Shown piece by piece: positions 4,653-4,767 of a stretch of DNA of 40,968 bases. Under the pieces are notes generated by a model that had not been told where the DNA came from, ran no database searches, and saw nothing but the letters and a program-made list of their open reading frames with translations. The stretch is from an uncultured Bacteroidales bacterium. GTDB taxonomy: Bacteria > Bacteroidota > Bacteroidia > Bacteroidales > Bacteroidaceae. The stretch's first letter is position 1, and every line of letters begins with the position of its first letter. Position numbers and translations under genes: made by a program. Location of the stretch: positions 1 through 40,968 of the forward strand of contig CACWTR010000021.1 of assembly GCA_902763865.1 (NCBI GenBank), given 5' to 3'.

Positions 4653-4767
4653 ACGCGACGAAAAGTTATTTTCAAAGCTTGAAAATTAATTTTCACGTCA
4701 TGAAAATATATTTTCATGGTTTGAAAATTGATTTTCACGTCGTGAAAATAGTTTTATGTCACGTCGT
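4653..4767. repeat. Array A: four 19-bp palindromes at 21-bp period, with inverted flanks
   Basis: Units start at 4668, 4689, 4710 and 4731. Each has arms ATTTTCA...TGAAAAT, with 2-bp spacers. Half-site endings, in order, are AA/AG, CG/TG, TG/AA, CG/CG. The flanks ACGCGACGAAAAGTT and AGTTTTATGTCACGTCGT form an imperfect outer inverted repeat. The element lies between the beta-galactosidase promoter and the tRNA-Phe terminator. Near-identical design occurs at 20763 and 33576. Confidence 0.9.

Follow-up and report, generated by a model that had tools for sequence, protein, structure and literature searches.

Tens of conserved palindromic sites, placed mostly away from promoters and read by one dedicated protein, characterize the parS/ParB and matS/MatP systems as well as the Noc-binding sites. 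Palindromes about two helical turns apart are found in the ARG boxes bound by ArgR and in the Lrp/AsnC operators, where oligomeric proteins bend or wrap the DNA at a few promoter sites. The REP/BIME and REPIN-RAYT elements are likewise palindromic, and are intergenic and dispersed in tens of copies. With respect to proteins, the HU-HIG clade of the HU superfamily was reportedly described by Burroughs and colleagues in Cell Cycle in 2017 on the basis of sequence analysis, and was proposed to recognise invasive elements. We know of no target of an HU-HIG protein, and of no cognate DNA array described for one. In Porphyromonas gingivalis, the gene for the HU protein PG0121 is reported to lie near a 77-bp inverted repeat, in the capsule operon (PMC3969353).

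Here we describe a family of dispersed arrays, each of four palindromes, in an uncultured Bacteroidales bacterium and its relatives. We propose, with a probability of roughly 0.6, that these arrays are docking sites of an autoregulated HU-HIG protein which probably organises the chromosome. The array-linked protein is a member of the HU-HIG clade by virtue of Pfam family PF18291. On this reading the arrays would resemble parS, matS and the Noc-binding sites in being dispersed palindromic sites read by one dedicated protein. They differ from these in having four phased palindromes per site, a 22-bp comb in the flanks and an HU-HIG protein, and also in that the arms vary between lineages and one site lies at the promoter of the protein's own gene. 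The spacing of the palindromes is like that of the ARG boxes and the Lrp operators, whereas the linked protein here is an HU-HIG protein. The arrays share dispersal with REP and REPIN elements; unlike these, their number of units is fixed at four and an HU-HIG gene is linked to them, and no link to a RAYT gene was found. The PG0121 locus, as far as the abstract describes it, is similar in that an HU-type protein is encoded near a large inverted repeat in a member of the Bacteroidales, and is dissimilar in being a single locus rather than a dispersed family.

Array design in the window

The window, i.e., the whole stretch of 40,968 nucleotides that was analysed, contains 12 perfect matches to ATTTTCA-N5-TGAAAAT in three groups of four with a spacing of 21 bp throughout, in agreement with an earlier note on this DNA. 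No further unit was found in the window at up to three mismatches (shuffled sequences gave a mean of 1.07 and at most 4). The arrays and their neighbours are as follows.

Array 1, positions 4668..4749: palindromes of 19 bp each at 4668, 4689, 4710 and 4731, 21-bp period, centres AAGCT, CGTCA, TGGTT and CGTCG
Neighbours of array 1: GH2 beta-galactosidase-like gene, 162-4646, minus strand; tRNA gene, 4887-4959, minus strand
Array 2, positions 20781..20862: palindromes at 20781, 20802, 20823 and 20844, centres TGATT, CGCTT, CGTCA and CGACG
Neighbour of array 2: MFS-like ORF, 20848-22047, minus strand, its 3' end overlapped over 15 bp by the last unit
Array 3, positions 33593..33674: palindromes at 33593, 33614, 33635 and 33656, centres AACTT, TGGTT, TGACG and CGTCA
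Neighbours of array 3: Mfd/TRCF-like gene, 29867-33265, minus strand; HAD hydrolase-like gene, 33760-34458, minus strand

The last palindrome of array 2 (20844-20862) provides the final codons and the stop of the MFS-like ORF. The five central bases of a unit comprise two from each half-site and one middle base. The 24 half-site endings of the window are CG (nine), TG (seven), AA (seven) and AG (one), and their order differs in each copy, exactly as had been counted before. The inverted outer flanks that had also been described are real with respect to AAA[A/G][C/T]T, which is nearly invariant beside the array, whereas the ACGCG/ACGTG sequence farther out proved loose and degenerate.

Copy number and inner grammar of the family

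The window is contig C21 of genome G000, an assembly of 2.91 Mb in 75 contigs with 84% completeness. In this genome the two-unit pattern has 206 matches per strand, as against 0 for the reversed pattern, and the four-unit pattern has 66 matches per strand, one of which reads a five-unit array in a shifted register. We located 64 arrays with four or more units and examined their surroundings; 12 of the 206 two-unit matches and one of the 66 four-unit matches lie outside the located clusters and may represent arrays cut by contig ends. Five of the 64 arrays (2.7 expected) lie within 1 kb of a contig end (contigs C30, C38, C46, C55 and C70 of G000), and arrays may break assemblies.

The fixed count that had been proposed from three copies, as opposed to random unit numbers and spacing, extends to the family, since 63 of 65 multi-unit runs consist of four units at 21 bp. 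When runs were collected in about 0.78 Mb at 11 of 14 arm letters, with no length assumed, the yield was 63 four-unit runs, one five-unit run and one two-unit run, and at 10 of 14 letters in about 0.78 Mb the corresponding numbers were 62, two and one. Relics in this amount of G000 sequence are rare, comprising one two-unit copy and one single-unit copy (L068). The arms are perfect in 254 of 256 units. Plain tandem duplication was rejected on account of the fixed count and the lineage-specific arms described below, and the earlier note was correct on this point, yet some copying of cores between places does occur.

The inner bases follow rules of their own. Among the 512 half-sites of the 256 units, the endings are CG (181), AA (155), TG (145) and AG (31), and they do not pair freely: CG with TG was found 120 times (51.3 expected), AA with AG 31 times (9.4 expected), and CG with AA 23 times (54.8 expected). 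Two AA-containing units are combined with two other units in 53 of 64 arrays, the five-unit array being represented by its first four units, while the other 11 have one AA-containing unit; shuffled data contained 23.9 arrays of the two-and-two type on average and never more than 39. The same rule is followed by 14 of the 17 arrays that remain once near-duplicates are taken out (P 5e-5). Read inward, the outer junctions are mostly CA (47), TA (44) and CT (25) of 128, and the middle junction is mostly TA (27) or AT (23) of 64; from this pattern it follows that the block has an overall two-fold symmetry.

Flanking sequences

Conservation in the G000 flanks falls steeply outside AAARYT, and a periodic signal is present farther out. 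In the average of 124 flanks in mirror register, AAA adjoins the array and recurs near -27, -49 and -71, with pyrimidines after each. The AAA positions near -5, -27, -49 and -71 are family averages (128 and 124 flanks). In G000 the signal falls from 1.9 to about 0.3 bits and is absent beyond about -75. The same 22-bp comb was found in 53 flanks of genome G160, whose arrays have other arms (A at -27, -49 and -71; C at -17, -39 and -61), and in the flanks of both genomes the comb lacks a sharp border. A decaying 22-bp comb in the register of the array is what wrapped DNA would leave. Addition of about 75 bp per side gives the following inferred footprints.

Array 1, inferred full footprint 4593..4824: core plus about 75 bp per side, based on the family average and not on the single copy
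Array 2, inferred full footprint 20706..20937: core plus about 75 bp per side, based on the family average
Array 3, inferred full footprint 33518..33749: core plus about 75 bp per side, based on the family average

Between positions -18 and -7 the two flanks of one element resemble each other more closely (0.452) than do flanks of different elements (0.361; 0 of 2000 shuffles). No other part of the flanks behaves in this way, and the gapped comparison of a longer region gave the opposite result (4.58 vs 5.15); we therefore make no claim of a closing stem formed by the paired flanks.

An HU-HIG gene linked to the arrays

Comparison of the genes around the G000 arrays with 40 stretches taken at array places in relatives revealed one gene family that lies close beside an array in G000, in G090 (twice), and in G117, G118, G086 and G099. 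The G000 member is the following.

HU-HIG gene of G000, L039:3960-4592, equal to contig C12:97959-98588: array upstream, adjoining a promoter box; product of 210 residues

The product matches Pfam HU-HIG (PF18291; 3e-15; 56.8 bits against a cut-off of 26.2) over residues 2-132, and the same family is matched by 24 of 24 aligned relatives. Pfam describes it as 'HU domain fused to wHTH, Ig, or Glycine-rich motif'. The G000 protein also matches NCBIfam HU_rel, below the cut-off of that family, and a PDB profile search returned HU/IHF for residues ~28-83 along with one weak C-terminal match. The C-terminal region is conserved, and has weak helix-turn-helix matches to DIP2311-like_C (5 of 24 proteins, best 1.3e-4) and HTH_DeoR (4 of 24, best 0.0066). 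ParB, MatP and Noc families are absent among the four families matched by the linked protein. An Lrp/AsnC octamer had been considered as the binder and was dropped once the HU-HIG gene was found.

The sequence TAnnTTTG, which we take to be a Bacteroidetes-type promoter box, occurs at most 130 bp from the start in 28 of 30 HU-HIG loci and in 0 of 30 in-gene controls of equal length. Some genomes have several copies of the HU-HIG gene, e.g., G059 with 11 matches. In viral contigs the exact two-unit pattern had 0 matches, and six peptide patterns detected no HU-HIG relative. Six loci obtained by DNA search (L080-L085) gave weak matches (best E 0.010).

Arrays and HU-HIG genes in related genomes

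Matches of the G000 arm type were found in 17 of the 139 genomes of the genus and in none of the other 122, with 208 matches per strand in G000 and 182 in G082. A match to the HU-HIG protein was obtained in 98 of the 139 genomes. Where the homologue has at least 59% identity, 13 of 13 genomes (G000 counted) have arrays of this arm type, as against four of the 126 others (Fisher 3.7e-15), although this threshold was set after looking and the Fisher value ignores shared ancestry. The four genomes with arm-type matches and without a close homologue, which count against the proposed reading, are G099, G115, G150 and G151. The reversed-pattern control was 0 except in G099 (13, against 6 real matches) and G117 (2, against 5), so that the counts for these two are doubtful. 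Also against it, in G083, G076 and G098 the array at the closest HU-HIG gene has ATTCTTAC-type arms, unlike the few dispersed arrays found there.

The regions upstream of the homologues were scored blindly for four palindromes at 20-22 bp. Of the 30 homologue loci examined, which are not independent because several come from near-identical genes, 20 scored above all 100 shuffles and 24 were equalled by at most two. At least one shuffle did as well at ten loci (L149, L159, L160, L161, L162, L164, L166, L167, L169 and L173), and the clearer failures are L159, L162, L166, L167, L169 and L173. Many of these regions have blocks of palindromes with a 21-bp period and quite other arms, among them TTTACGTCGTAAA in G160, GTTGCTGGGCGAGCAAC in G150, ATTCC...GGAAT in G120 and TACGCAAGTTGCGTA in G035.

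Should array and protein belong together, genes for HU-HIG proteins of other specificity are expected to have other arms, and two predictions were made on this basis. In G160, another species, the arms at the HU-HIG gene, whose product has 49% identity, gave 92 and 81 matches, as against 0 in four other genomes and 0 in the control. Of the 27 runs in the G160 stretches, 26 have four units and a single one has five; the array beside the HU-HIG gene is among them; in G082, nine of nine multi-unit runs have four units. The second prediction employed the arms at a gene of G059, a genome from another family, which gave 15 matches per strand at nine places and 0 matches in four other genomes. Two of these nine places adjoin HU-HIG genes. 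Moreover, two G059 proteins that are about 86% identical in an ungapped comparison nevertheless have different arms. A de novo scan of G068 revealed one more array whose arms are those found at the HU-HIG gene of G068, while G140, which has 13 HU-HIG-like matches, yielded one array-like block (L189) in 260 kb, among low-complexity matches. Outside the genus, clear arrays were found at three of 11 loci in two of seven genomes (G059 twice, and G249); the G179 locus was equalled by 1 of 100 shuffles and the remaining loci by more. A scan of named genomes detected related arrays in Bacteroidaceae bacterium RGIG6784 (sheep rumen) and RGIG7992 (water buffalo rumen), in Prevotellaceae bacterium RUG12472, and in Bacteroidales bacterium RGIG6215 (sheep rectum).

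Upstream of two more distant HU-HIG-like genes from another family (L235 and L252; G168) there are direct repeats of ~21-22 bp (AAATCAACTGATTTTCATTAGT; ACAATCGAACTTCAACTGAGAA). They are less palindromic, and are perhaps another form of the array design.

The earlier note had offered three options, namely a multivalent protein-binding array, a four-hairpin RNA module, and a REP/REPIN-type repeat moved by a RAYT transposase. The first is supported by the array-linked gene for a candidate binder, the HU-HIG protein, and by the arrays that this link predicted in two other genomes; the other two are not, as set out below.

Placement of the arrays and alternative explanations

Genes were called with a simple purpose-made ORF scorer, by which 85% of the examined sequence is coding, and none of the 64 arrays lies wholly inside a called gene. 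The arrays lie between convergent (17), tandem (29) or divergent genes (14), or at a contig end (4). All 27 gaps between listed G000 arrays on the same contig are at least 8,753 bp (0 of 20,000 random placements). Among the matches listed for G160, the minimum of 15 gaps is 9,041 bp (P 0.0024). Unlisted arrays, including the 12 unplaced two-unit matches of G000 and those of G160 beyond the matches listed, could lie closer and would weaken this spacing rule.

The alternative that survives best, although we consider it unlikely, is that the arrays are a selfish, MITE-like copied element in need of the HU-HIG protein, which would serve it as an accessory or immunity factor, with the minimal spacing representing target immunity. 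Identical 82-bp cores occur in ten pairs of unlinked arrays, and cores with a single differing base in 26 pairs; copying of this kind shows that the arrays do spread by some process. Such cores and the minimal spacing would also suit a mobile element that has target immunity, and the steep drop in conservation outside AAARYT, the jumps in copy number between species and the multi-copy HU-HIG genes of some genomes are also compatible with it. However, the flanks of identical cores are only slightly more similar than those of other pairs (0.49 vs ~0.38 near the array; 0.26 vs 0.25 far from it), relics are rare, and visual inspection of the array flanks showed no target-site duplication. Furthermore, no array-linked transposase gene was found and the flank signal has a periodic decay in the register of the array, which together argue against a transposon. 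Some arrays also adjoin the same gene across species despite their different arms. Four G000 arrays have the same neighbour gene as an array of another species, with arms that differ in looseness: L034 with G090 and G117, L027 with G082, and both L058 and array 3 of the window with G090, where the array adjoins a homologue of the Mfd-like gene. Only L034 has a gene match on both sides. No empty orthologous site could be read for array 3 in G019, G026, G035 or G082, where the match starts ~110 bp to the right of the array and the left side is unaligned.

Less probable still is a plain regulon, in which the HU-HIG protein would act as an ordinary transcription factor with the arrays as its operators. 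The array at the HU-HIG gene does adjoin a Bacteroidetes-type promoter box, and among the 60 arrays that have a called gene on each side, 43 (the 29 tandem and 14 divergent cases) are upstream of at least one gene. The other 17, however, are flanked by convergent genes, a setting in which a promoter is not expected. The arrays avoid gene starts (median distance 225 bp in 58 cases, minimum 56) and not gene ends (median 74 bp in 66 cases), and TAnnTTTG occurs 10-60 bp out, in 50-bp windows, at just four of 128 sides of dispersed arrays. A regulon would also not be expected to have a minimal spacing of 8.75 kb. The off-promoter positions, the convergent sites and the spacing thus argue against this explanation.

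The proposal that the arrays are REP/REPIN elements moved by a Y1 (RAYT) transposase is highly improbable. The arrays are dispersed intergenic palindromes in tens of copies, and Y1_Tnp matches do exist, two in G000 (one clear, and one borderline on C18) and four in G082. However, the clear G000 gene (C4:17736-18074) is in stretch L069, which has no listed array of this family, G160 has dispersed arrays and no Y1 match (in an assembly that is 80% complete), and the gene found beside arrays across species encodes an HU-HIG protein. A transcribed RNA module of four hairpins is just as implausible, for while strong folding is predicted for a transcript of each of the three copies (z -7.6 to -11.1), palindromes fold strongly regardless of use, the predicted folds differ (on the plus strand, one long hairpin in copies 1 and 2 and a branched form in copy 3), the inner bases favour the non-complementary CG/TG pairs, the gene contexts are mixed, and Rfam matched only tRNA and RNase P, and not the arrays, in the window and four sample stretches.

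Other repeats

A second dispersed family in G000 consists of three TTGCTTCATCGCGATGAAGCAA-type palindromes (four in L069) with an exact 22-bp period, flanked by inverted sequences similar to ACACGTCGTG. It was found at six places in 0.78 Mb, four of them within the 150 kb of L068-L075, and its copy in the window is upstream of a PriA-like gene.

Second family, window 12285-12350
Second family, L052:3413
Second family, L069:4025
Second family, L071:10768
Second family, L072:9766
Second family, L073:8707

The window also has REP-like inverted repeats at 20454-20720 and 39492-39558 (GCCCTGAAAGGGC with GATTATCCT...CGTACCACCA ends), which are 93% alike over 67 bp, and inverted pairs of the CACGAATTxCACGAATT type at 34449-34549 and 36840-36948, which are 85% complementary over 54 bp. 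Positions 36536-36608 and 37251-37323 are 78% alike and lie in two neighbouring ORFs of the minus strand (36207-36809 and 36964-37953), which may be related genes in tandem. In G022, a large inverted repeat (AAACTATATATATGTTTT-CCGC-AAAACATATATATAGTTT; L077:2690-2790) adjoins a homologue of the MFS-like gene.

Proposed mechanism and significance

The design of the arrays, their copy number, the spacing of those listed, their association with the HU-HIG gene, and the outcome of the two cross-genome predictions are read directly from the DNA. From these we infer binding, wrapping, autoregulation and an architectural role, to which we attach different degrees of confidence. That the HU-HIG protein binds its own arrays is very probable. 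Its putative helix-turn-helix domain at the C-terminus would read the half-sites, and dimers would occupy the palindromes in phase, 21 bp being two helical turns. The HU domains would bend the DNA at the four strong sites and at about three weaker contacts, 22 bp apart, on each side. Wrapping of this kind may produce a compact, dyad-symmetric, nucleosome-like particle of ~230 bp.

Autoregulation, in which the array at the promoter of the HU-HIG gene would set the level of the protein, is likely, if somewhat less so than binding itself. An architectural role of the dispersed copies has about even chances; if they have one, they would most likely mark or fold the chromosome in domain anchoring, compaction or segregation. 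The arms would be private to the HU-HIG protein of each lineage. A broader and more tentative possibility, which we put forward as speculation, is that Bacteroidales possess a sequence-coded, nucleosome-like form of marking, in which a fusion of HU with a reader domain might form ~230-bp particles at four-palindrome addresses at least ~9 kb apart, with a private code for each lineage and for some paralogues that is used also at the protein's own promoter.

The DNA element could not be assigned to a known kind: no linked RAYT gene was found, no RNA family matched it in the window and four sample stretches, and the families matched by the linked protein do not include those that read parS, matS or the Noc-binding sites; the principle of dispersed cognate sites is already known. 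Literature searches in open papers returned no report of these arrays and nothing relevant for HU-HIG or PF18291.

The target of such a protein can be read from DNA alone, in that the palindromes beside the gene name the sites throughout the genome, and two predictions of this type came true. Legible targets make the function of HU-HIG proteins directly testable, and offer a natural series of protein-DNA specificity pairs. Finally, the arrays suggest a way in which gut and rumen Bacteroidales may organise their chromosomes with a sequence-reading, histone-like protein.
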